From Enterobacter hormaechei ATCC 49162 (GTDB taxonomy: Bacteria; Pseudomonadota; Gammaproteobacteria; Enterobacterales; Enterobacteriaceae): 64,000 nucleotides of DNA. Of the stretch, positions 14,199 to 54,238 are shown in pieces (the stretch's first letter is position 1; every line of letters starts with the position of its first letter). The stretch is from NCBI RefSeq assembly GCF_001875655.1, contig NZ_MKEQ01000001.1, positions 682,001 to 746,000 of the forward strand, in the 5' to 3' direction. A model generated the notes under the pieces. The model was not told the DNA's origin. It worked only from the letters and a program-made list of their open reading frames with translations, and did not search any database. The position numbers and the translations under genes were made by a program.

Positions 14199-14218
14199 TA
14201 CTGTATATAATTACAGTA
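14199..14218 (+). promoter_or_regulatory. LexA (SOS) box of yebG
   Basis: TACTGTATATAATTACAGTA is a near-perfect LexA operator (CTGT-N8-ACAG with AT-rich centre). It overlaps a TATAAT -10 at 14206-14211 and ends 14 bp before the yebG ATG. Confidence 0.95.
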
Positions 14219-14232
14219 TACGGGAGTGCACA

Positions 14233-14544
14233 ATGGCTGTTGAAACAAAATTTGTTGTCGTAAGAAAAGGTGAAGAGAAAATGACATTTGCCAGTAAGAA
14301 AGAGGCTGACGCTCACGACAAACTGCTTGATATGGCAGAAGCGTTCACCGACTGGCTGTTGCAAAGCGGAATGCAGATGGATGAAACGCAGGCGGAAAAC
14401 CTTGGTCTGTATCTCGCCGAGCAGAAAGAGTCCGTGCAGCATATCCTGCGTACCAGCAAGCTTCCTGAGCAGAACGCAGCAACGGATAAAACAGTGTCAG
14501 AGGCGGATGGCAGCAAAAAAATCCGGGCTGTTAAAGCCGCCTGA
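14233..14544 (+). CDS. yebG: SOS-inducible protein YebG
   Basis: 103 residues from the ATG at 14233: MAVETKFVVVRKGEEKMTFASKKEADAHDKLLDMAE, matching the start of E. coli YebG (96 residues). It is a small charged cytoplasmic protein induced by DNA damage; its biochemical role is unknown. A consensus LexA box sits directly upstream and a GC-rich terminator downstream, so it is a single-gene SOS unit. In E. coli yebG lies elsewhere, so its place after dmsD marks the start of the accessory block. Confidence 0.93.
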   Translation: MAVETKFVVVRKGEEKMTFASKKEADAHDKLLDMAEAFTDWLLQSGMQMDETQAENLGLYLAEQKESVQHILRTSKLPEQNAATDKTVSEADGSKKIRAVKAA

Positions 14545-40940: not shown

Positions 40941-41288
40941 ATGGCTCTGATCCCCAAAAACTACGCACGGCTGGAAAGCGGCTACCGTGAAAAAGCGCTA
41001 AAAATCTACCCCTGGGTTTGTGGACGCTGCTCGCGTGAGTTTGTTTATTCAAATCTTCGTGAACTCACGGTTCACCATATCGACCACGATCACACCAATA
41101 ACCCGGAAGATGGCAGTAACTGGGAACTGTTGTGCCTGTTTTGTCACGACCACGAACACTCAAAGTACACCGAAGCGGATCAGTATGGCACCACCGTTGT
41201 CGCGGGTGAGGATGCGCAAAAAGACGTGGGTGTCGCCACGTTTAACCCCTTTGCCGATCTCAAGGCGATGATGAACAAGAAGAAGTAA
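40941..41288 (+). CDS. yajD: HNH nuclease family protein YajD
   Basis: 115 residues, almost identical to E. coli YajD (IPKNYARLESGYREKALKIYPWVCGRCSREFVYSNLRELTVHHIDHDHTNNPEDGSNWELLCLFCHDHEH). HNH motif with four zinc cysteines in CGRC and CLFCHDHEH and the catalytic HHIDHDH. In E. coli the gene lies elsewhere in the chromosome. The cellular role is unknown. Confidence 0.95.
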   Translation: MALIPKNYARLESGYREKALKIYPWVCGRCSREFVYSNLRELTVHHIDHDHTNNPEDGSNWELLCLFCHDHEHSKYTEADQYGTTVVAGEDAQKDVGVATFNPFADLKAMMNKKK

Positions 41289-41452
41289 TATCGACGGCTT
41301 CACTGCCCATACCTGTCGTATGGGCACTTATATTCCTTCAACATTTCATTAAATACCCTTTCCGCCAGCTTTGCCTCGCCGCCATTCTGGACATAACCCT
41401 CTCCCTCCTGCCCCCTCCTCGTTCCCCCTTGATCTTTGCTATCAACATACAA

Positions 41453-41472
41453 TACTGTATATAAATACAGCA
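41453..41472 (+). promoter_or_regulatory. LexA (SOS) box of the umuC locus
   Basis: TACTGTATATAAATACAGCA contains CTGT-N8-ACAG with an AT-rich core and overlaps a TATAAA -10. It lies 20 bp before the umuD remnant and 64 bp before umuC. Confidence 0.92.
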
Positions 41473-41491: not shown

Positions 41492-41533
41492 ATGCAGTTT
41501 TTCACACCAACTGGCGATACCAGAGCGAGCTGA
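41492..41533 (+). pseudogene. umuD: 13-codon umuD remnant in frame before umuC
   Basis: ATG to TGA encodes MQFFTPTGDTRAS. The first codons (ATG-x-TTT-TTC) match the start of the intact umuD at 52.6 kb (M-x-F-F-x-P). The last nine bases GCGAGCTGA differ by one base from that gene's GCAAGCTGA. The stop is followed by two bases and the umuC ATG, the same spacing as TGA-NN-start behind the intact umuD. This fits an in-frame internal deletion of umuD. It may still couple umuC translation as a leader. Confidence 0.75.
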
Positions 41534-41535
41534 CC

Positions 41536-42801
41536 ATGTTTGCACTGTGTGATGTGAACGCTTTCTATGCGTCCTGTGAAACGGTTTTTCGCCCGGATCT
41601 GAAGGGACGGCCAGTAGTGGTGTTGTCCAATAACGACGGGTGCGTCATCTCTCGCTCCGCTGAAGCCAAACCCTTTGTGAAAATGGGTGAACCGTACTTC
41701 AAACAGAAAGATCGCTTCAGGCATCATGGCGTGGTTTGTTTCAGCAGTAATTATGAACTTTACGCGGATATGTCCAACCGGGTCATGAACACGCTTGAAG
41801 CGATGTCGCCTCGTAGCGAAATATACTCAATTGATGAGATCTTTTGCGATCTTACCGGGGTGCGTAATTGTCGCGATCTTGCCGATTTTGGGCATGAAAT
41901 GAGAGCGACCGTTCTGCAACACACCCATCTGACCGTCGGGGTGGGTATCGCCCCCACAAAGACGCTGGCGAAACTGGCAAATCACGCAGCGAAACGCTGG
42001 CAACTCCAGACGAGAGGCGTTGTTGATTTGTCCAATGTGGATCGTCAGAGAAAGCTGATGGCGGCGCTTCCCGTCGAAGAAGTGTGGGGTGTAGGACGTC
42101 GCATAGCGAAGAAGCTTGAAATAATGGGGATTAAGACCGTCCTGCAACTGGCAGACACCGATATCCGGTTCATCAGAAAACATTTTAATGTCGTGCTGGA
42201 GAGAACGGTGCGTGAATTACGGGGGGAGCCGTGTCTTGAACTGGAAGAGTTTGCCCCGGTAAAGCAAGAAATCGTCTGTTCGCGCTCGTTTGGCGAACGC
42301 ATCACGGAATATGAAGATGTACGCCAGGCCATCTGTAGCTATGCCGCCCGGGCAGCAGAAAAACTTCGCAATGAGCATCAGCATTGCCGATTTATCTCCG
42401 TATTTGTTAAAACCTCACCCTTCGCCCTTAACGAACCGTATTATGGCAATAGCGCGTCGGTAAAACTGCTCACCCCAACCCAGGATAGCCGGGACATTAT
42501 CGGCGCAGCTGTTCGTTGTCTGGATGCGGTCTGGAAGAAGGGTCATCGGTACCAGAAAGCCGGAGTGATGCTGGGAGATTTTTATAGCCAGGGCGTCGCG
42601 CAACTTAATCTGTTCGACGATAACGCCCCCAGGAAAAACAGCCAAAAGTTAATGGATGTATTAGACCATCTGAATGCTGAAAATGGCCGTGGCACGCTCT
42701 ACTTCGCGGGACAGGGTATACAGCAGCCGTGGCAGATGAAACGGGAAATGCTTTCACCCCGCTATACCACCCGATTCGCTGATCTTCTTACTGTTAAGTG
42801 A
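41536..42801 (+). CDS. umuC: DNA polymerase V catalytic subunit UmuC
   Basis: 421 residues from the ATG at 41536 (E. coli UmuC is 422). Y-family polymerase: FALCDVNAFYASCETVFRPDLKGRPVVVLSNNDGC (first catalytic Asp and steric gate region), EIYSIDEIFCDLTG (catalytic SIDE), VGVGIAPTKTLAKLANHAAKRW, then helix-hairpin-helix and little-finger domains; beta-clamp-type motif QLNLFDD near the end. It performs error-prone bypass of DNA lesions as UmuD'2C during the SOS response. A LexA box lies upstream, but its partner umuD is reduced to a remnant here; an intact umuD is about 9.4 kb away. Confidence 0.95.
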   Translation: MFALCDVNAFYASCETVFRPDLKGRPVVVLSNNDGCVISRSAEAKPFVKMGEPYFKQKDRFRHHGVVCFSSNYELYADMSNRVMNTLEAMSPRSEIYSIDEIFCDLTGVRNCRDLADFGHEMRATVLQHTHLTVGVGIAPTKTLAKLANHAAKRWQLQTRGVVDLSNVDRQRKLMAALPVEEVWGVGRRIAKKLEIMGIKTVLQLADTDIRFIRKHFNVVLERTVRELRGEPCLELEEFAPVKQEIVCSRSFGERITEYEDVRQAICSYAARAAEKLRNEHQHCRFISVFVKTSPFALNEPYYGNSASVKLLTPTQDSRDIIGAAVRCLDAVWKKGHRYQKAGVMLGDFYSQGVAQLNLFDDNAPRKNSQKLMDVLDHLNAENGRGTLYFAGQGIQQPWQMKREMLSPRYTTRFADLLTVK

Positions 42802-42904: not shown

Positions 42905-43924
42905 ATGGCGATTTTTGATGGTCACAATGACCTGTTGCTTAATTTATGGCTTCACCATCGCCAGGATCCGGTAACGGCCTTCTTCTCCGGCATTGAAAAC
43001 GGCCATCTTGATTACCCGCGCATGCAGCAAGGCGGATTTTCCGGTGGTCTGTTCGCGCTGTTCGTGCCACCGCAGGCGTATATCGCCCGCATGGCGCCAC
43101 AATACGCCAGCGAGCCGTGGCAGCCTGTCGACATTCTCTGGCAGCAGCTGACGATCCTTAAGCAGCTTGTCGCCCACTCCGATGGCCGGGCGCGATTGTG
43201 CCTGAGCGCGGCGGATATCGAACGCTGTCGTCAGGATAAAGTGCTGGCGATGGTGGCGCATATTGAGGGCGCGGGGGGTTTTGACGGCGAGGGAGAGGAT
43301 CTCCAGGCTTTTTATGCCGCTGGAGTGCGCAGCATTGGACCTTTCTGGAACATTGCTAACCGTTTCGGCACCGGCGTTAACGGGGCGTTTCCCGGCAGCC
43401 CGGACAGTGGCCCAGGACTCACCGCCGAGGGTATCGCCCTCATTAAACACGCTAACGCCCTGAACATGCTGATTGACGTTTCGCATATGAATGAAAAGGC
43501 GTTCTGGGATACCGCTCGTCATTCCTCTTCACCGCTGGTCGCTACCCATTCCAACGCCCATACGCTGTGCCCGCAACCGCGCAATCTGACCGATCACCAG
43601 CTGCTGGCTATCCGCGACAGCGGCGGTGTGGCAGGCGTCAATTTCGGCAACGCGTTTCTGCGCGCCGACGGTAAACGCGATAGCGACACCCCGCTGAGCA
43701 CGATCGTTCGCCATATCGACTATCTTATTAACATCATGGGTGACGATCATGTCGCGCTGGGCTCCGATTTTGACGGTATTACGTTGCCTGATGATTTACG
43801 CGATGTGAGTGGTTTGCCACGGCTAATCAGCGCGTTACGTGACAGCGGCTATGATCAATTTGTGCTGAATAAGCTGCTGTGGGGCAACTGGCAAAAGGTA
43901 TTACAAAATGTTTGGCAACAATAG
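42905..43924 (+). CDS. M19 family membrane dipeptidase
   Basis: 339 residues from the ATG at 42905; a GTG at 42893 is an in-frame alternative. Renal-dipeptidase-type zinc enzyme: FDGHNDLLL (first zinc ligands HxD), VAHIEGAGGF (bridging Glu), IDVSHMNEKAFWD, VATHSNAHTL, and LGSDFDGI. No clear signal peptide. It lies directly upstream of pqqA on the same strand, an arrangement common in pqq-bearing enterobacteria. A role in recycling peptide fragments from PqqA processing is possible but is inference. Confidence 0.87.
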   Translation: MAIFDGHNDLLLNLWLHHRQDPVTAFFSGIENGHLDYPRMQQGGFSGGLFALFVPPQAYIARMAPQYASEPWQPVDILWQQLTILKQLVAHSDGRARLCLSAADIERCRQDKVLAMVAHIEGAGGFDGEGEDLQAFYAAGVRSIGPFWNIANRFGTGVNGAFPGSPDSGPGLTAEGIALIKHANALNMLIDVSHMNEKAFWDTARHSSSPLVATHSNAHTLCPQPRNLTDHQLLAIRDSGGVAGVNFGNAFLRADGKRDSDTPLSTIVRHIDYLINIMGDDHVALGSDFDGITLPDDLRDVSGLPRLISALRDSGYDQFVLNKLLWGNWQKVLQNVWQQ

Positions 43925-44062
43925 GTTACGTTGTAAACAATACGTTAATTCCTTACATCTTTCGGGTTGAGCTTTGCCCTCCTGTGACGCATTATTTGAT
44001 GACCATCACAAAACTGGCACAAACAATGGCGTTGGTGCTGCATTTTTAAAGAGGAAAAAACG

Positions 44063-44134
44063 ATGTGGAAGAAACCTGCTTTTATTGATTTACGTCTTGG
44101 CCTGGAAGTGACCCTGTACATTTCCAACCGCTAA
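44063..44134 (+). CDS. pqqA: PQQ precursor peptide PqqA
   Basis: 23 residues, [23 protein letters not shown]. It contains the E-x3-Y pair (Glu15, Tyr19) whose side chains are crosslinked by PqqE and become the PQQ skeleton. GAGG lies about nine bases upstream. A terminator-like hairpin follows, so pqqA is probably made in excess over pqqB-F. Confidence 0.97.
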
Positions 44135-44140
44135 TCACTC

Positions 44141-44167
44141 TGCCCGCCATCCGTGCGGGCATTTTTG
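44141..44167 (+). terminator. terminator/attenuator between pqqA and pqqB
   Basis: TGCCCGC and GCGGGCA form a perfect 7-bp stem with a 7-nt loop, followed by TTTTTG. It begins six bases after the pqqA stop. Partial termination would give a short abundant pqqA transcript and a longer pqqA-F transcript. Confidence 0.8.
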
Positions 44168-44189
44168 TTCGACTACCTGGCCTATCTTC

Positions 44190-45107
44190 ATGTTTATAAA
44201 AGTCCTCGGTTCCGCCGCTGGCGGCGGTTTCCCCCAGTGGAACTGTAACTGCGCCAACTGTCAGGGTTTGCGCAACGGCACCCTTCAGGCGACCCCTCGC
44301 ACCCAGTCGTCGATCATCGTCAGCGATAACGGCAAAGAGTGGGTGCTGTGTAACGCCTCGCCCGATATCAGCCAGCAGATTGCCCATACGCCAGAACTCA
44401 ATAAGAAAGAGGTTCTGCGCGGCACGCATATTGGCGGCATTATTCTCACCGATAGCCAGATTGACCACACCACCGGGCTGCTTAGCCTGCGCGAGGGGTG
44501 TCCGCATCAGGTATGGTGTACGCCGGAGGTGCATGAAGATCTTTCTACCGGATTCCCGATTTTTACCATGCTCCGGCACTGGAACGGCGGCCTGATTCAT
44601 CACCCGATCGTGCCGCTCACCGCCTTTAGCGTGGAAGCCTGCCCTGATTTGCAGTTTACCGCTGTCCCCATCGCCAGTAACGCGCCGCCCTATTCGCCAT
44701 GGCGCGACCGCCCGCTGCCGGGGCATAACGTGGCGCTGTTTATCGAAAACCGCCGCAACGGTCAGACGCTGTTCTACGCGCCGGGTCTCGGTGAACCCGA
44801 TGACGCTATCCTGCCGTGGCTTAAAAAAGCGGACTGTCTGCTGATTGACGGCACCGTCTGGCAGGACGATGAACTCCAGGCCGCTGGCGTCGGGCGCAAT
44901 ACCGGCCGCGACATGGGCCATCTGGCGCTCGGCGATGAACACGGCATGATGGCGCTGCTGGCCTCGCTGCCAGCAAAGCGCAAGATTCTGATCCACATTA
45001 ATAACACCAACCCGATCCTTAACGAGCAGTCGCCGCAGCGTCACGCCCTCGCACAGCAGGGAATAGAAGTGAGCTGGGACGGGATGAACATCACGCTTCA
45101 GGACTAA
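44190..45107 (+). CDS. pqqB: PQQ biosynthesis protein PqqB
   Basis: 305 residues, metallo-beta-lactamase fold: [25 protein letters not shown] (zinc-binding cysteines), [19 protein letters not shown] (the altered HxHxDH region SQIDHT), [12 protein letters not shown]. PqqB is an iron-dependent hydroxylase acting on the Glu-Tyr-derived intermediate before PqqC. Two bases separate it from pqqC. Confidence 0.97.
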
Positions 45108-45109
45108 CT

Positions 45110-45865
45110 ATGCACATTCGCGAAACGCTCTCGCCGCAAGAGTTTGAGCACGCCCTTCGGGCGAAAGGCGCCTACTATCATATTCACCATCCGTACCATA
45201 TCGCGATGCATAACGGCGAGGCCAGCCGCGAGCAGATCCAGGGCTGGGTGGCGAACCGGTTTTACTACCAGACGACGATCCCGCTGAAAGACGCGGCAAT
45301 TATGGCGAACTGCCCGGATCCGCACACGCGTCGTAAATGGGTGCAGCGGATCCTCGATCACGACGGCAGCAACGGTCATGACGGCGGTATCGAAGCCTGG
45401 CTACAGCTGGGCGAAGCCGTGGGGCTGAGCCGCGACGACTTAATCAGCGAACGCCACGTGCTGCCCGGCGTCCGTTTCGCCGTCGACGCTTACGTTAACT
45501 TCGCCCGCCGCGCCAACTGGCAGGAGGCGGCATGCAGCTCGCTCACCGAACTGTTTGCCCCGCAAATCCATCAGTCGCGTCTCGACAGCTGGCCGCAACA
45601 CTATCCGTGGATCAAAGAGGAAGGCTATTTTTATTTCCGCAGCCGCCTCAGCCAGGCCAGCCGCGACGTTGAACACGGTCTGGAGCTGGCGAAGCGTTAC
45701 TGCGATAGCGCAGAAAAGCAGAATCGGATGCTGGAGATCCTTCAGTTCAAACTCGATATCCTGTGGTCGATGCTCGACGCGATGACCATGGCCTACGCGC
45801 TACAGCGTCCGCCTTATCACACGGTCACCGACAAAGCGGCCTGGCACACAACCCGACTGGTATAA
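45110..45865 (+). CDS. pqqC: pyrroloquinoline-quinone synthase PqqC
   Basis: 251 residues, all-helical cofactorless oxidase that catalyses the last ring closure and eight-electron oxidation to PQQ. Family blocks: [78 protein letters not shown], and [32 protein letters not shown]. The length equals the Klebsiella protein. AGGA overlaps the pqqB 3' end. Confidence 0.97.
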
Positions 45866-47275
<1,410 letters not shown>

Positions 47276-47280
47276 CGACA

Positions 47281-49557
47281 ATGACCACCCGCATCGTGGA
47301 ACTGGCAGGCGGTTTACGCGCAACGCTGGTGCATCAGCCACAGGCGACACGCGCGGCGGCGCTGGCGCGCGTGAGCGCCGGAAGCCATCACGAGCCACCG
47401 CGTTTCGCCGGTCTTGCGCATTTACTTGAGCACCTGCTGTTCCGCGGTAGCCAGCGCTATCAGGGCGATGATCGACTCATGGCCTGGGTCCAGCGCCAGG
47501 GCGGGAGCGTCAATGCCACCACGCTGGCTCGCCACAGCGCCTTTTTCTTTGACGTTGCCGCCGATAACCTGTCCGACGGCGTCGCGCGGCTGCGGGATAT
47601 GTTGCAGGCGCCGCTGCTTTCACGCCATGACATACAGCGCGAAGTGGCGGTCATTGATGCGGAAAACCGGCTCATTCAGCAACATGATGCCACCAGGCGC
47701 GAAGCGGCGGCGCGCCACGCGATGGAAGAACCTGCGGTTTTTCGCCGTTTTCAGGTGGGCAGCAAGGATTCTCTGGGGCAGGACACGCTATCGCTGCAAA
47801 CCGCGTTGCGCGACTTTCATCGCCGCTATTATGTGGCCGGACACCTGCAATTGTGGCTGCAAGGGCCGCAAACGCTGGATGCGCTGGCCGAGCTTGCCCG
47901 TACGTTTGCGTCAGGTTTTGCGTCAGATGGCATGCCTGAAACCGCTCCCCCGTTGCGTCTTAGCGCTGAAGCAGAGTATCAGCTGGCGGTGACGGAGCGA
48001 CCCGCACTGTGGCGCTGTCCGTTAATTCGAAAAAGTGACAACGTCACCTTGCTTCAGGAGTTTTTACTGGACGACGCCCCCGGAAGCCTGATTGCCGAAC
48101 TGCGGACGCGCGGGCTGGCAGAAGAGGTAGCCCTGAACTGGCTTTATCAGGATGACGAGTACGGCTGGCTGGCGCTAACGGTTGACGGCGAACGGCCCGA
48201 GGACATAGACCCGCATATTACCCACTGGCTACAGGCGCTACAGCAAACGACGGATGAGCAGCAGCGGCATTACCATCGGCTGGCACAGCGGCGTTTCAGC
48301 GCCCTGCCGACGCTCGAGCAGCTGCGCCAGCGGGCGTTTGGTTTTGCGCCCGGCGCGGCGCCCGCGGGTTTTTCCGCCTTCTGTGCCGATTTACTGGCGG
48401 CGCCAGTCTCGTATCTGGCCTGCAAAAAAATGGAAACCGCTGAAATTATCGCCAGCCAGGGTTTTTCCCTGCCGCTTAGCCCCTGGCGTCGCCAGCCGGT
48501 TGCAGATGATAGCCCTATCGCGTTTTCCTTCTACCCACAGACTGCCAGGTATGCTGCGCCAGCCCCGACGTCAGAAGCCGCTCCGCTGCTGCATTTATCG
48601 GCGCAAACACAACCGCCAACGCTGATCCTGCGCAGGCCTTTTTATTCGCGCGTGGAACGGGCACAGGGGGTGGCGATGGGCAAACAGTTACGCCCGCTTC
48701 TTGCTGAACTGCGCCATATCGACGGCAGCGGCGAGTGGCAAGCGGTTGACGGCAGCTGGCAGCTGACCCTGCGGCTTCCTGACGCCATGGTGACGGCGGA
48801 ACGCATCATCGGGGCGATTATCGAGCGCCTCGCCCACCTCGCTCCGGCGATTACGCCCGCGCCAGAAGGCATTGCCATCCGTGAGTTGCTTCAGCAATTG
48901 CCTGAACGTCTGGCATCCGATCCGCCACGGGACGGCTGGCTGGCGGCGTTAGCTGGCGGCAGCGCCGGACACGCGCACCGGTTAGCCCGGCAGCTTAGCC
49001 TGCTCGGGGCGCCGGTTAACGCTACGCCGACGCCGCTAAACGGTTGTCCCGGCGGGATCGAACACATTCCGCACGCCAGCGCGGATTCGGCGCTGCTGGT
49101 GTTTATTCCCCTGCCGCCGGGTGCGTCGCTCGCCGCGCTGCGGCTGCTGGCGCTATGCTGCGAACCACAATTTTTCCAGCGCCTGCGCGTGGAACAGCAG
49201 ATTGGCTACGTGGTTAGCTGTCGTTATCAGCGTATTGCCGATCGCGATGGCCTGCTGCTGGCGTTGCAGTCGCCTGACCGTTCTCCCCTGAATCTGTTGG
49301 GTTGCTGTAAACGATTTTTGCGTGAGCTGACGCTGTGCGATGAAGCGACGTTCAGCGTGTTGAGACAGCAGCTGGCGACGCAGATCCCCTCACCGATGGA
49401 TGCCAGCGCCACGGCAGTGGCCGCCCTGCGCCAGCGCTACGGTTTACCGGTGTTAACGCCGCAGGCTATTGATGCCCTGCAACCTGACGAGATAATCGCG
49501 CTATGGCGCGAGATGACGCGCCGTCGCCGACGCTGGCGGGTGCTTTTCACGGGCTGA
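47281..49557 (+). CDS. pqqF: PqqF M16-family zinc protease
   Basis: 758 residues. The inverted zinc motif HLLEH lies near residue 43, with RHSAFFFDVAADNL and REVAVIDAENRLI downstream supplying the distal glutamate. M16/insulinase architecture with N- and C-terminal halves. It cleaves PqqA or the crosslinked product, probably to release the Glu-Tyr unit. Last gene of the pqq operon, five bases after pqqE. Confidence 0.95.
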   Translation: MTTRIVELAGGLRATLVHQPQATRAAALARVSAGSHHEPPRFAGLAHLLEHLLFRGSQRYQGDDRLMAWVQRQGGSVNATTLARHSAFFFDVAADNLSDGVARLRDMLQAPLLSRHDIQREVAVIDAENRLIQQHDATRREAAARHAMEEPAVFRRFQVGSKDSLGQDTLSLQTALRDFHRRYYVAGHLQLWLQGPQTLDALAELARTFASGFASDGMPETAPPLRLSAEAEYQLAVTERPALWRCPLIRKSDNVTLLQEFLLDDAPGSLIAELRTRGLAEEVALNWLYQDDEYGWLALTVDGERPEDIDPHITHWLQALQQTTDEQQRHYHRLAQRRFSALPTLEQLRQRAFGFAPGAAPAGFSAFCADLLAAPVSYLACKKMETAEIIASQGFSLPLSPWRRQPVADDSPIAFSFYPQTARYAAPAPTSEAAPLLHLSAQTQPPTLILRRPFYSRVERAQGVAMGKQLRPLLAELRHIDGSGEWQAVDGSWQLTLRLPDAMVTAERIIGAIIERLAHLAPAITPAPEGIAIRELLQQLPERLASDPPRDGWLAALAGGSAGHAHRLARQLSLLGAPVNATPTPLNGCPGGIEHIPHASADSALLVFIPLPPGASLAALRLLALCCEPQFFQRLRVEQQIGYVVSCRYQRIADRDGLLLALQSPDRSPLNLLGCCKRFLRELTLCDEATFSVLRQQLATQIPSPMDASATAVAALRQRYGLPVLTPQAIDALQPDEIIALWREMTRRRRRWRVLFTG

Positions 49558-49596
49558 CCGGAATCGCCGCTTTTTCCTGTGCGTAATTTAAGCCAT

Positions 49597-49622
49597 AAAA
49601 AAGCCCCGTTCTAAGACGGGGC
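49597..49622 (-). terminator. terminator of the PQQ dehydrogenase gene
   Basis: On the reverse strand GCCCCGT-CTTAGA-ACGGGGC is followed by TTTTTT. On the forward strand it follows pqqF but has no T tract there. Confidence 0.88.
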
Positions 49623-49641
49623 CTGGCAGCTTATTTCGCTG

Positions 49642-52071
49642 TTACTTATCCAGCGCGTAGGCAATCACGTAGTCACCGCGATCCGGCGACTGGCGAGCAC
49701 CGCCAGCAGAGATCAGAATGTACTGTTTGCCGGTTTTCGGTGATACATAGCTGATCGGTCCGCCCTGGCTACCCACAGGGAGACGCGCTTTCCACACCTC
49801 TTCCCCCGTAGAGGAATCAAAGGCGCGCAGATAATAATCCTGGGTTCCCGCAATGAAAACCAGACCGCCCTGCGTGGCCAGCGTACCGCCCAGCGTCGGC
49901 ATACCGACAGGCATTGGCATACGCATTTTTACCCCAAACGGGCCGGTATCCTGAACAGTCCCGACCGGCACCTGCCAGACGATTTTCTGCGTTTTCAGGT
50001 CAATGGCGGAGAGGGAGCCAAACGGTGGTTTCTGGCACGGAATGCCCAGCGGTGACATGAAACGGTTTTTGTTGACCGAATACGGCGTTCCTTTCATCGG
50101 AACGGCGCCCATCCCGGCGTTCACGGCTTCACCGCCCGTGTTTGCCACCGCGCTTTGCGGATCCTGTTTAATCAACTGGACCCACAGACCCAGACGCATG
50201 TCATTGACGAAGATATACTGGTTGTTTGGATCGGTGGACAGACTGCCCCAGTTCATTCCCCCCAGCGAGCCAGGGAAGCTCAGGGAAATGTCGGTTCCCG
50301 GCATCGTGTACAGACCGTCATAACGCATCGATTTGAAGCTGATACGACAGGCCAGCTGGTCAAACGGCGTTGCCCCCCACATATCCGATTCTTTCAGGGT
50401 TTCCGCGCCAATCTGCGGCATCCCCACAGAGCGCGGCTGCGTTGCCGGGTACTGTTCACGTGGAATATCCGCTGGTTTTACCGGAACTTCTTTCACTTCA
50501 GTGAGCGGTTTACCCGTCAGGCGATCAAGAACGTAAATTTGCCCCGCTTTGGTGCCCACCACTACCGCGGGCTTGTTGCCCTCTTTCGTCGGGAAATCAA
50601 CCAGGCTCGGCTGCATCGGAATATCGAAATCCCAGAGGTCGTTATGCACGGTCTGGTATACCCACTTCTCTTTCCCGGTGGTCGCATCCAGCGCGAGGAT
50701 TGAGGTGGCGTATTTGTGATCTTCCGGAATACGGTCCGCGCCCCACAGGTCGACAGAGGAACTTCCCATCGGGATAAATACGGTATTCATTGAGGCATCC
50801 CAGGACATAGGGGCCCAGGAGTTTGCGGAGCTACGTTTGTAGTGTTCGCCCGGTTTCAGAACATAGTTCGGATCCGGATTACGCGGGTCGAACGCCCAGC
50901 GCAGCTGGCCGGTGATCACGTCATAACCACGAATTACGCCTCCCGGCATATCGGTGCTGACGTTATCCGCAACGCGGCCACCAACGACAACCGTGGTACC
51001 CGCCAGCGTCGGGGCCGACGTCAACACGTAGGTTGGATCTGACGCATCGCCCATCCCTTCATGCAGGTCAACGCTGCCGTGAGTGCCGAAGTCCGGGCAG
51101 AATTTGCCGTTATCGGCGTCTAACGCGATCAGCTTACCGTCAATGGTATTCATCAGGATACGACGCTGGCATGCCGCGCCCGGTGCGACCTGCGCAGGCA
51201 GAACCGGCGTGGAACCTGCTACCGTTGGCTGTGCCAGCGGTTTGGTGGCATCAAAGTACGCCAGGCCACGGCAGCGCATCCAGATTGCAGACTTAGCGTT
51301 GATTTCCGCTTTCCAGATCGCTTTCCCGCTGTCGGCATCCACGGCAATCACGTTGTTATGCGGCGTACACAGGAAGACACGATCGCCAACCTGTAGCGGC
51401 GTTTGCTGATCTTCTGCGCCGTTGCCGTCCGGACTTTCCGGTACGTCACCGGTATGGAAGGTCCAGACCGGTTTCAGGTTTTTCACATTGTCACGGGTTA
51501 TCTGGTCCAGCGCCACAAAACGACTGCCGCCAGCCGTATTACCGTAGTGATCCCAGTTCTGCTGTTTCGCCTCGTCTTTTACCGGCACCAGGGGGCGTTT
51601 TTCACCGCTAAACGGCACGGTCGGATGGGGTTGAAACATCTGAACAAAGGTGACACCCATGGCGACAATAAGCACCGCGCAGACCCCCATCGCCCCTTTT
51701 GTGGAGGACGGTTTTCCTTCACGCTTGCGCAGTGCAGGCCAGGTGGCGGCTGCCAGCACCATCAGCCCGGCAGGTACCATTAAACGGGAAACCAGCGGCC
51801 AGAAGTCTAGCCCGGCATCGAAAAATGCCCAAATCAGGGTGCCAAGAAACACCAGGGCAAACAGCCCCACGGCAGAGGACTTGCGGCGGAAGAACTGGAT
51901 CGCAGAGAGCAGCGTGATAACCCCGGCAATGAGAAAGTACCAACTCCCCCCCAGAGAAACCAGTTTGAAACCGCCGATGGCAAAAAACAGCCCCGTCACA
52001 AGAAGTATCACGCCCACCAGCAGGCACCACAGGCCTACCCAGCCGGATGGGCGGGGATTATTGTCTGACAT
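49642..52071 (-). CDS. membrane-bound PQQ-dependent dehydrogenase (glucose/quinate/shikimate family, Gcd-like)
   Basis: 809 residues: about five N-terminal membrane helices (to about residue 145), then an eight-bladed PQQ propeller. Blocks: WDHYGNTAGGSRFVALDQITRDNVKNLKPVWTFHTGD, LCTPHNNVIAVDADSGK, VYQTVHNDLWDFDIPMQPSLVDFP, SDMWGATPFDQLACRISF, and the C-terminal GGLVFIAGTQDYYLRAFDSSTGEEVWKARLPVGSQGG. It is closer, as remembered, to the Acinetobacter-type enzyme than to E. coli Gcd, so the substrate (glucose, other aldose, quinate) is open. It oxidises the substrate in the periplasm and passes electrons to ubiquinone. Placement beside pqqA-F supplies its cofactor. Convergent with pqqF. Confidence 0.9.
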   Translation of the reverse strand: MSDNNPRPSGWVGLWCLLVGVILLVTGLFFAIGGFKLVSLGGSWYFLIAGVITLLSAIQFFRRKSSAVGLFALVFLGTLIWAFFDAGLDFWPLVSRLMVPAGLMVLAAATWPALRKREGKPSSTKGAMGVCAVLIVAMGVTFVQMFQPHPTVPFSGEKRPLVPVKDEAKQQNWDHYGNTAGGSRFVALDQITRDNVKNLKPVWTFHTGDVPESPDGNGAEDQQTPLQVGDRVFLCTPHNNVIAVDADSGKAIWKAEINAKSAIWMRCRGLAYFDATKPLAQPTVAGSTPVLPAQVAPGAACQRRILMNTIDGKLIALDADNGKFCPDFGTHGSVDLHEGMGDASDPTYVLTSAPTLAGTTVVVGGRVADNVSTDMPGGVIRGYDVITGQLRWAFDPRNPDPNYVLKPGEHYKRSSANSWAPMSWDASMNTVFIPMGSSSVDLWGADRIPEDHKYATSILALDATTGKEKWVYQTVHNDLWDFDIPMQPSLVDFPTKEGNKPAVVVGTKAGQIYVLDRLTGKPLTEVKEVPVKPADIPREQYPATQPRSVGMPQIGAETLKESDMWGATPFDQLACRISFKSMRYDGLYTMPGTDISLSFPGSLGGMNWGSLSTDPNNQYIFVNDMRLGLWVQLIKQDPQSAVANTGGEAVNAGMGAVPMKGTPYSVNKNRFMSPLGIPCQKPPFGSLSAIDLKTQKIVWQVPVGTVQDTGPFGVKMRMPMPVGMPTLGGTLATQGGLVFIAGTQDYYLRAFDSSTGEEVWKARLPVGSQGGPISYVSPKTGKQYILISAGGARQSPDRGDYVIAYALDK

Positions 52072-52211: not shown

Positions 52212-52232
52212 CACCTTACAGAGCGCAAACAC
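52212..52232 (-). pseudogene. umuC: umuC 5' remnant behind intact umuD
   Basis: Two bases after the umuD stop (TGA-TC-) comes GTG TTT GCG CTC TGT AAG GTG, reading MFALCKV. The intact umuC at 41.5 kb begins MFALCDV with the same spacing behind the umuD remnant. Similarity is lost after these seven codons. This fits a deletion of nearly all of umuC from an ancestral umuDC operon. Confidence 0.75.
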
Positions 52233-52234
52233 GA

Positions 52235-52654
52235 TCAGCTTGCGGATTTCACGATATACGTCACCACCCCAAAGATATCGAGCGTATCGTCGCTGCCGAC
52301 AATAATCGGTGAATAGGCGCTGTTCATGGGGTTGAGTTGAATATTGGGACGTAGCTGGAGGCGCTTCACGGTAAATTCGCCCTCTACCGCCGCAATCACG
52401 ATATCGCCATGCTCAGGCTTGCGGGAACTGTCCACCACCAGCAAATCACCGTTATTGATCCCCCCTTCTATCATCGAGTCACCGGCGGCTTTGACAAAGT
52501 AAGTGGAGCTGGGATGGGCGACTAATAGCTCGTTTAAATCGATACGCCGCTCTACATAATCCGCTGCCGGGCTGGGGAAGCCGCACTGTACTAAGTCGCT
52601 GAAAAGTGGAATAGCAACGATTTCACGCAACTCTGCGGGTTTGAAAAAGATCAT
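52235..52654 (-). CDS. umuD: DNA polymerase V accessory subunit / self-cleaving UmuD
   Basis: 139 residues from the ATG at 52654 (same as E. coli), with GGAGG seven bases upstream. Cleavage site Cys24-Gly25 in [13 protein letters not shown], nucleophile Ser60 in AGDSMIEGG, general-base Lys97 in [13 protein letters not shown]. RecA filaments trigger self-cleavage to UmuD', which joins UmuC. It has its own LexA box but no umuC downstream, only a seven-codon remnant. The only umuC in the window is about 9.4 kb away. Confidence 0.95.
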
Positions 52655-52979
52655 GATAAACACCTCCATACTGTTTTTATATACAGTAGTTTTAACGGAG
52701 GTATCGATCAAGCCATGTCAGCGTAAGCGGCTGGCTACGGCTTAACCGCTTCGCTTATAAGCCCCTATTGCAATGAAGATTATTTGCTTTGTAAATTTTT
52801 ACGCATGGGCAAGCTTAACGCGTCATAAAACATCACTACACCATCACTTATCACTGACTTATAAATGCACAAAAGATAAATACACATCACTGCATAATCA
52901 CTACCTGTTGACTTTACATTTAGACTAACGCATATTTTACAGCACAAATTAACAAGACAATTTTTGGAGGACGTTTCCC
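52655..52979. other. 325-bp divergent promoter region umuD / RHH gene
   Basis: Holds the umuD ribosome binding site and LexA box at the left end. The rest is AT-rich with short repeats of ATCACT/TCACTGC-like sequence around 52838-52902, and carries the upstream region of the ribbon-helix-helix gene. An 82-codon reverse-strand frame (52780-53028) overlaps that gene and has no support. Confidence 0.5.
52669..52688 (-). promoter_or_regulatory. LexA (SOS) box of umuD
   Basis: TACTGTTTTTATATACAGTA: CTGT-N8-ACAG with AT-rich core, overlapping a TATAAA -10 on the reverse strand, 15 bp before the umuD start. Its core differs from the box at the umuC locus. Confidence 0.92.
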
Positions 52980-53226: not shown

Positions 53227-54093
53227 TTAATCCGCCAGCGAATTTAACGTCTCCAGCGCCTCAGGCGGCAATACCAGATCGGCAGCCGCCAGGTTTTCAC
53301 GCAGATGCGCCACCGAAGATGTTCCCGGGATCAAGAGGATATTTGGCGAGCGTTGCAGCAGCCATGCCAGCGCTACCTGCATCGGCGTCGCGCCCAGGGA
53401 ATCCGCCACCGCCTGTAGCCCGGAAGATTGCAGAGGTGTGAAACCACCCAGCGGGAAGAACGGCACCCAGGCAATCCCCTGCTGCGCCAGCGAATCAACC
53501 AGCGCATCGTCACCGCGATTCACAACGTTGTACATGTTCTGTACGCACACCACGGAAACCATCTTCTGCGCTTCAGCGACCTGCGAAGCGGTGACGTTGC
53601 TCAGCCCAATATGGCGAACCAGCCCCTGCTGTTGCAGCTCTGCGAGGGTGCTCAGCGGCGCGGCAATCGAGCCTTCCGCCGGTCCGTGGGCGCTAAACAT
53701 GATCCGCAGGTTAACCACGTCCAGCACATCCCGTTTCAGGTTACGCAGGTTGTCATGCACCGCCTGCGTCAACTCCTGCGCGGAAAACGCCGGTAGCCAG
53801 GAGGCGTCCTCGCCGCGTCGGGCACCGATCTTGGTCACAATCGTGAGATCGTCCCGGTACGGATGAAGCGCCTCGCAGATAAGCTGGTTGGTCACATGAG
53901 GGCCGTAAAAATCACTGGTATCAATGTGATTCACGCCCGACGCCACCGCTTCGCGCAGCACCGCCAGCGCCGCATTTTTGTCTTTTAGCGGACCAAAAAC
54001 GCCAGGCCCGGCAAGCTGCATCGCGCCATAGCCAAATCGTTTAACCGTACGCGTGCCGAGCGTGAACGTTCCGCTTTTATCTATGCTGCTCAT
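53227..54093 (-). CDS. pdxI: aldo/keto reductase, pyridoxal reductase PdxI (YdbC)
   Basis: 288 residues from the ATG at 54093, behind AGGAAGG; a longer start at 54108 overlaps that site. It matches E. coli YdbC/PdxI: FGYGAMQLAGPGVFGP, NHIDTSDFYGPHVTNQLI (catalytic Asp and Tyr), TKIGARRGEDASWLPAF, HIGLSNVTASQVAEAQK, IPGTSSVAHLRENL. NADPH-dependent reduction of pyridoxal to pyridoxine. Single gene. Confidence 0.92.
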   Translation of the reverse strand: MSSIDKSGTFTLGTRTVKRFGYGAMQLAGPGVFGPLKDKNAALAVLREAVASGVNHIDTSDFYGPHVTNQLICEALHPYRDDLTIVTKIGARRGEDASWLPAFSAQELTQAVHDNLRNLKRDVLDVVNLRIMFSAHGPAEGSIAAPLSTLAELQQQGLVRHIGLSNVTASQVAEAQKMVSVVCVQNMYNVVNRGDDALVDSLAQQGIAWVPFFPLGGFTPLQSSGLQAVADSLGATPMQVALAWLLQRSPNILLIPGTSSVAHLRENLAAADLVLPPEALETLNSLAD

Positions 54094-54238
54094 GCTGACC
54101 TTCCTCATAAAAAATGATCCGGATTTACAACAGGTTCCGCGACGAAACCATTAGTTAAGCAATAGTAAAATTAAAGTTTAAATTCGCTACGACGATAGTA
54201 TTGATGTAACCCTGCCTCTTCTCTTACGGATGACCGCC

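Follow-up and report, generated by a model that had tools for sequence, protein, structure and literature searches.

A putative split DNA polymerase V of mixed ancestry in Enterobacter hormaechei

The subunits of DNA polymerase V (pol V) are normally encoded by one operon. UV-induced and most chemically induced mutagenesis of E. coli is due to pol V according to the part of PMC4552617 available to us, which also gives LexA control and UmuC levels. In Acinetobacter baumannii, umuD and umuC are unlinked and conserved in all strains (PMC3224125), and the umuC genes are under UmuDAb and DdrR (PMC7273328); the excerpts of these two papers at hand do not mention a reciprocal loss, a leader or a mixed origin of the genes in this species. 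The umuC-type genes rulB, rumB and umuC are hotspots of insertions that leave rulA/umuD intact (PMC4542609 and PMC4458695, in excerpt). No report of a split or orphan umuC in Enterobacterales was found in the literature, judged by titles and abstract openings among the matches listed, most subscription papers lying outside the search, and mixed UmuD-UmuC pairs are not treated in the available part of PMC6495647.

The window, as we call the whole 64,000-nucleotide stretch of Enterobacter hormaechei ATCC 49162 DNA analyzed here, encodes the same two protein families as E. coli umuDC/pol V (UmuD'2C), with LexA-type boxes and with the cleavage and catalytic residues of UmuD. In contrast to the single umuDC transcript of E. 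coli, its umuD and umuC belong to two opposite transcripts 9.4 kb apart, apparently differ in ancestry, and umuC follows a 13-codon umuD remnant that forms a leader. The genes are unlinked like those of A. baumannii, where control is exerted by UmuDAb/DdrR, in the accessible text, and not by LexA. The window shares with the excerpted descriptions of umuC-interrupting elements (rulB/ICEPan type) a cut umuC-type gene adjoining an intact, LexA-controlled umuD-type gene; the interrupting DNA consists there of integron-like elements or islands, whereas the window adds a second umuC without its own umuD. Insertions in umuC and unlinked umuD/umuC in Acinetobacter are already known, and the window split adds a variant. 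We favor, with a probability of about 0.7, the hypothesis that the pol V of the window is split and mixed in ancestry, its orphan genes being kept as the only pol V of the genome and their products forming UmuD'2C in trans. Such a sole pol V would be a natural test of the importance of the operon, of the specificity of UmuD-UmuC pairing and of UmuC dose control.

The two halves of the locus

The complete umuC gene (41536-42801, + strand) codes for a 421-residue protein that matches NCBIfam NF002955 over residues 1-421 (845.1 bits, cut-off 431) and carries SIDE and QLNLF, which we take to be functional motifs. A loop near codon 50 is one residue shorter (AEAKPFVKMG) than in L126 (AEAKALGVKMG). 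The short loop is common to G053, RIT693, G005 and the Leclercia-type G002; its interpretation as damage was rejected because it is a lineage trait, present in the intact operon of G053 too. Upstream of the leader and umuC lies a LexA-type box, TACTGTATATAAATACAGCA (41453-41472, + strand), with no mismatch to the pattern (0/100 shuffles). A -35-like TTGATC (41429-41434, + strand, read by eye) is found 18 bases upstream of the TACTGT of this box, and an identical element with the same spacing precedes the intact umuD of G053.

The leader is a 13-codon frame, MQFFTPTGDTRAS, followed by a stop (41492-41533, + strand) that ends 2 bases upstream of the umuC start; the same remnant is present in G027. 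In the close umuDC operon of G053, the intact umuD starts with ATGCAGTTTTTCACACC and ends with GCGAGCTGA. These ends match MQFFTPTGDTRAS, so the frame is read as both ends of umuD fused in frame by an internal deletion. At the level of sequence, the comparison shows an internal deletion that eliminated the presumed incoming umuD and spared its promoter as well as the start and stop, now a 13-codon leader. This remnant, a LexA box with its leader, is a direct sign of the loss of the other half and was absent from an earlier note on this DNA, which had proposed that two umuDC operons lost opposite halves.

The umuD gene (52235-52654, - strand) is complete, with 139 codons (NCBIfam NF007621, 159.7 bits, cut-off 110). 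Its product aligns to E. coli UmuD (8gmt) over residues 1-137 and retains C24-G25, presumably the cleavage site, and S60 and K97, presumably the catalytic residues; the 8gmt chain has A at position 97. Both constituents of a pol V, a UmuC-family catalytic subunit and a UmuD with cleavage and catalytic residues, are thus recognizable in the window. The LexA pattern search placed a box, TACTGTATATAAAAACAGTA, at 52669-52688 (- strand), and a -35-like TTGATC read by eye (52706-52711, - strand) lies 17 bases upstream of its TACTGT. The description of umuD as intact and LexA-controlled in the earlier note agrees with this complete frame and its box. With up to 2 mismatches allowed, the window contains 3 palindromes that fit the pattern, counted as 6 matches over both strands, against 0 in 100 shuffles. 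Two of the three belong to umuD and umuC, and these boxes predict LexA control of both genes. The third palindrome (14199-14218) is upstream of a YebG gene (14233-14544, Pfam PF07130), which brings the SOS-type genes of the window to at least three.

On the - strand, umuD is followed by TGA-TC-GTGTTTGCGCTCTGT-AAGGTGTC, where similarity to umuC ends after GTGTTTGCGCTCTGT. The latter corresponds to codons 1-5 of umuC (GTG TTT GCG CTC TGT, MFALC; 52218-52232, - strand), read as a relic of a resident operon. This succession of umuD, TGA-TC, a umuC start and divergence had been noticed before, with seven umuC codons; five remain. Among the umuC starts of 74 intact operons, at least 12 agree with the relic at 14/15 bases; agreement is 13/15 (counted by hand) for the same-locus operons of G028 and G060 and 12/15 for the window's own umuC. 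Matching several lineages, the 15 bases alone cannot assign the relic to one. It is read as umuC because of its position and because window 52212-52801, which comprises relic, umuD and promoter, aligns to the intact umuCD of G060 (81.0%) and G028 (80.7%). The TC spacer and the GTG start are also present in G060, and sister G027 has GTGTTTG alone left at this position. A chance match to umuC codons was ruled out by the position and by the 81% alignment running through the relic; relatives do have umuC similarity at 52.2 kb.

The umuC relic behind umuD and the umuD remnant before umuC indicate that both genes were once present twice. They speak against a single operon split by insertion or inversion, in which umuD and umuC would be original partners, a scenario that would suit two LexA boxes differing at only 2/20 bases. 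The earlier note had used the difference between the boxes as an argument against such a split: the difference exists, the argument is weak at 2 bases, and the case is carried instead by the trees and the flanking DNA. With discordant trees and AU tests rejecting a common lineage (see below), we regard the single-operon origin as barely conceivable. A PF00817 profile search of the whole genome gave two matches, the window umuC and a 355-residue frame presumed to be DinB; the genome has no second umuC by this search, which answers the earlier question of another umuDC elsewhere.

Ancestry of the genes and rearrangement of the locus

The locus is framed by yajD, coding for an HNH nuclease (40941-41288, + strand; NCBIfam NF008448), present in 60/61 genomes of the genus, and by the gene of an aldo/keto reductase (AKR) family oxidoreductase (53227-54108, - strand; NCBIfam NF007695), present in 44/61 genomes at E <= 1e-100. 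Between the umu halves lies a block (42905-52071) with genes for an M19 dipeptidase, pqq functions and a PQQ-dependent dehydrogenase, five of which were assigned by Pfam. PqqC is patchy, occurring in 7/61 genomes of the genus, in 6 of them between yajD and the AKR gene. The five block genes tested by Pfam include no phage family, the ground on which a prophage between the halves was rejected, and no recombinase. Misassembly is unlikely because G027 has an identical layout at 95% identity.

Relatives carry intact operons at this locus in either orientation. Written in window orientation, G060 and G028 have yajD(+) ... umuC(-)umuD(-) ... AKR(-), and G053 has yajD(+) ... umuD(+)umuC(+) ... AKR(-). 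The window combines the umuC of the G053-type layout with the umuD of the G060/G028-type layout, with the pqq block between them. Both orientations thus exist at the yajD-AKR locus, and no genome with both operons complete there, the kind of ancestor envisaged in the earlier note, was seen.

Phylogenetic analysis separates the two genes. In the UmuC tree (75 rows), the window and G027 join G053 (99/76), followed by RIT693 (100/96) and G005 (97/97). The UmuD tree (76 rows and 139 columns, bootstrap not settled) places them with the same-locus operons of G028 and G060 (99/90). AU tests, with groups chosen after inspection of the trees and sequences with internal stops excluded from the comparison set, reject the placement of the window UmuC with G028 and G060 (p 0.000117) and of the window UmuD with G053 (p 0.0155). 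UmuD and UmuC of the window are by these phylogenies predicted to descend from two different operon lineages. Synteny and trees together show that a putative resident operon, umuC(-)umuD(-), once occupied the yajD-AKR locus. The reciprocal loss from two umuDC operons is supported by these trees, by the intact same-locus operons and by the lack of another umuC in the genome in the profile search; the grouping of UmuD with G028/G060, apart from the UmuC lineage of the window, is the outcome of the phylogenetic comparison suggested earlier. Residues V13 and K79 of UmuD in the window and G027, noticed post hoc, resemble the UmuD lineage of the other operon type; an adaptation to the new UmuC partner is possible.

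Acquisition of a lone umuD next to an orphan umuC, with no resident operon, could be imagined in a genus where umuDC genes are widespread on mobile DNA. The window umuD, however, adjoins the AKR gene in the orientation seen in the intact G060 and G028 operons, its alignment to these operons extends across the promoter, and a umuC start follows it, which makes this course of events highly improbable.

The breakpoint of the resident operon coincides with the edge of the pqq block. In blastn, the shared block stops at window 52211 in G027, G029, G037 and G039, and alignments with the intact G060, G028 and G053 operons start at window 52212. The resident umuC is cut at this edge, so its loss probably accompanied the insertion of the block. 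From the shared breakpoint, we infer that an incoming block with a + oriented umuDC and pqq genes would have removed the resident umuC past codon 5. Beyond the edge, G027 carries 199 extra bases, similar by eye to the interval of G029, which suggests that some DNA is missing from the window at this point.

Selection and joint fate of the orphan genes

A comparison of the window with G027, which has the split in common with it, gives dN/dS values of 0.055 (umuC) and 0.058 (umuD), with 0.039-0.093 for seven neighboring genes. Six Leclercia-type genomes (15 pairs) have values of 0.054-0.101 for umuC and 0-0.048 for umuD. Purifying selection acts on both orphans. G027 has an additional complete operon, so that constraint there is no proof that a split pair works alone.

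Six genomes have pqq at the locus. Both halves are kept in the window genome (G000) and in G027; the other four, G022, G029, G037 and G039, have lost umuC, of which ~70 bases of the 3' end are left in G022, G029 and G037 and ~30 bases in G039. Their umuD is absent at the locus in G029, G037 and G039 and internally deleted in G022. All four possess complete umuDC operons elsewhere, and their losses may therefore reflect redundancy; these joint losses could also be few events. Between yajD and the dipeptidase gene, at the place of the window umuC, G029, G022 and G037 (loci L191, L193 and L194) have ~550 bases resembling a small - strand gene, followed by the last ~70 bases of umuC.

The four sisters that are already without umuC, with umuD lost or truncated, would fit the view that both window genes are leftovers being lost and present through recency alone. 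Full-length frames, dN/dS of ~0.06, two retained LexA promoters and the absence of another umuC in the genome by the profile search stand against it and render it very unlikely.

Under the preferred split pol V, both orphans would be kept because together they are the sole pol V of the genome, a view supported by dN/dS and joint retention or loss. DNA damage would generate RecA*, leading to LexA cleavage and firing of both promoters. UmuD would be made at one place and cleaved by RecA* to UmuD', UmuC would be made at the other and translated behind the leader, and UmuD'2C would assemble in trans. The products of two LexA-driven transcripts most likely form a hybrid pol V in this manner, which would be expected to assemble and to carry out RecA-dependent lesion bypass. 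With assembly in trans, the UmuD:UmuC ratio would depend on two promoters and the leader, not on one operon, and the dose of UmuC is predicted to be set by the leader. Dosage and timing might in this way be uncoupled, as the earlier note proposed.

Recurrence of splits and leaders upstream of umuC

Among the matches listed, paired by position, 55/61 genomes of the genus have 104 full-length umuC genes, 90 with umuD just upstream and 14 without. Four of the 14 were dropped: one umuC in G027 (position 1164922) and two in G037, which by eye have a diverged UmuD-like frame directly upstream, and that of G058, an operon with one transcript direction, an extra 550-residue ORF and a single LexA box near umuD. 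The umuC of G003 looks frameshifted and is outside the count. Splits are found in 10/61 genomes of the genus: G000, G027, G005, G002, G004, G012, G044, G052, G055 and G046. The split gene is the sole full-length umuC among the matches listed in G000, G002, G052, G055 and G046.

In all ten genomes left after these exclusions, the split umuC shares its contig with an unpaired umuD. This association, together with the shared fate of both genes in the six genomes that carry pqq at the locus, argues against the alternative that the orphans are kept but are not partners, UmuD acting alone (e.g. on other polymerases) and UmuC with another UmuD-like protein. The window genome does have another UmuD-like frame (46%, C1:1644513) that could pair with UmuC, the genus also has unpaired umuD without unpaired umuC (25 umuD vs 14 umuC among the matches listed, truncated ones included), and UmuD binding to other polymerases is named in the available part of PMC3901139. 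We consider a separate use of the two proteins unlikely and keep the partnership in trans as the better explanation.

G005 is, judging from AU tests (p 0.0187 and 0.00026), a second putative hybrid that combines a window-type umuC with a umuD grouping with the Leclercia-type orphans; a fragment of another umuC adjoins it. In G046, an in-frame internal deletion has shortened the umuD upstream of umuC to 114 residues. Convergent to this umuC is a complete umuD under LexA control with 34 umuC-like codons behind it. This looks like an early stage of a split. Three genomes outside the genus are also split. Enterobacteriaceae bacterium RIT693 has a 58-codon in-frame umuD remnant upstream of umuC and, 32 bases past umuC and convergent to it, 28 codons of another umuC with a complete umuD. 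In Tatumella morbirosei, umuC and umuD are convergent, each with a LexA-type box, and there is no recognizable remnant. Beyond a weak match (23-26% identity) and the RIT693 fragment, these two genomes give no further match to the UmuC profile. In Kluyvera sichuanensis, umuD and umuC are on one strand with 10 kb separating them, and the genome has a second operon; the intervals of K. sichuanensis and G044 look metabolic, as judged by eye.

Seven lineages are counted (G000/G027, G005, the Leclercia-type group, G046, RIT693, Tatumella and Kluyvera). Parsimony on the UmuC tree, which covers 6/7 of them, requires at least 5 changes with regain allowed and six, counted by hand, if loss is final. Like the window, the other splits have umuC without a complete umuD before it, an own LexA box and a complete umuD on the contig. 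Unlike it, their halves are 0.2 to ~60 kb apart, convergent or on the same strand, and their umuD remnants are either of another kind or absent. A LexA-type box 50-80 bases upstream of umuC occurs in 1/392 family genomes, the window's own; this set, with 5 genomes of the window's genus and 0 of Leclercia type, was tested for the 50-80 base spacing alone and is uninformative on other spacings. The repeated splits are natural replicates. A broader idea, possible but rather doubtful, regards the subunits of pol V as modules: a umuDC arriving beside or inside a resident umuC would lose its umuD and hand its UmuC to the resident UmuD, giving a hybrid mutasome with UmuC on a separate LexA promoter via a short leader, and about seven such origins would have arisen in Enterobacterales because the arrangement lets the dose and timing of UmuC evolve independently of UmuD.

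A recognizable umuD remnant stays in the umuD frame in five lineages (window/G027, RIT693, G046, Kluyvera and G005). The frame of G005 has lost the former umuD stop and ends ~20 bases inside umuC. In the seven Leclercia-type genomes inspected by eye (the six counted and G003), the leaders are 16 codons long, 5/7 with an earlier ATG in another frame as well, and their descent from umuD is uncertain. Leaders fall in the set range of a shuffle test in 5/6 lineages, G005 being the exception; an inherited umuD stop makes such matches likely anyway. The leaders would fit translational coupling with umuC, which is only suggestive since shuffles reach the set range at 0.04-0.26 each.

Other arrangements were observed along the way. 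In G058 (locus L227), the first umuC codons are copied at the left end of the 550-residue ORF between umuD and umuC, and the stop of this ORF overlaps with the start of umuC, a pattern that would fit a duplication of the umuC start during insertion. The umuC of G038 is apparently broken into residues 1-148 and 144-419, ~260 kb apart (C1:2296319 and C1:2037090), and umuD precedes the first piece. The two G037 umuC genes (C1:4832961 and 4880375) score equally and lie 47 kb apart, each behind its diverged UmuD-like frame and with no LexA-type box close by; a similar one is found in G027 (C1:1164922).
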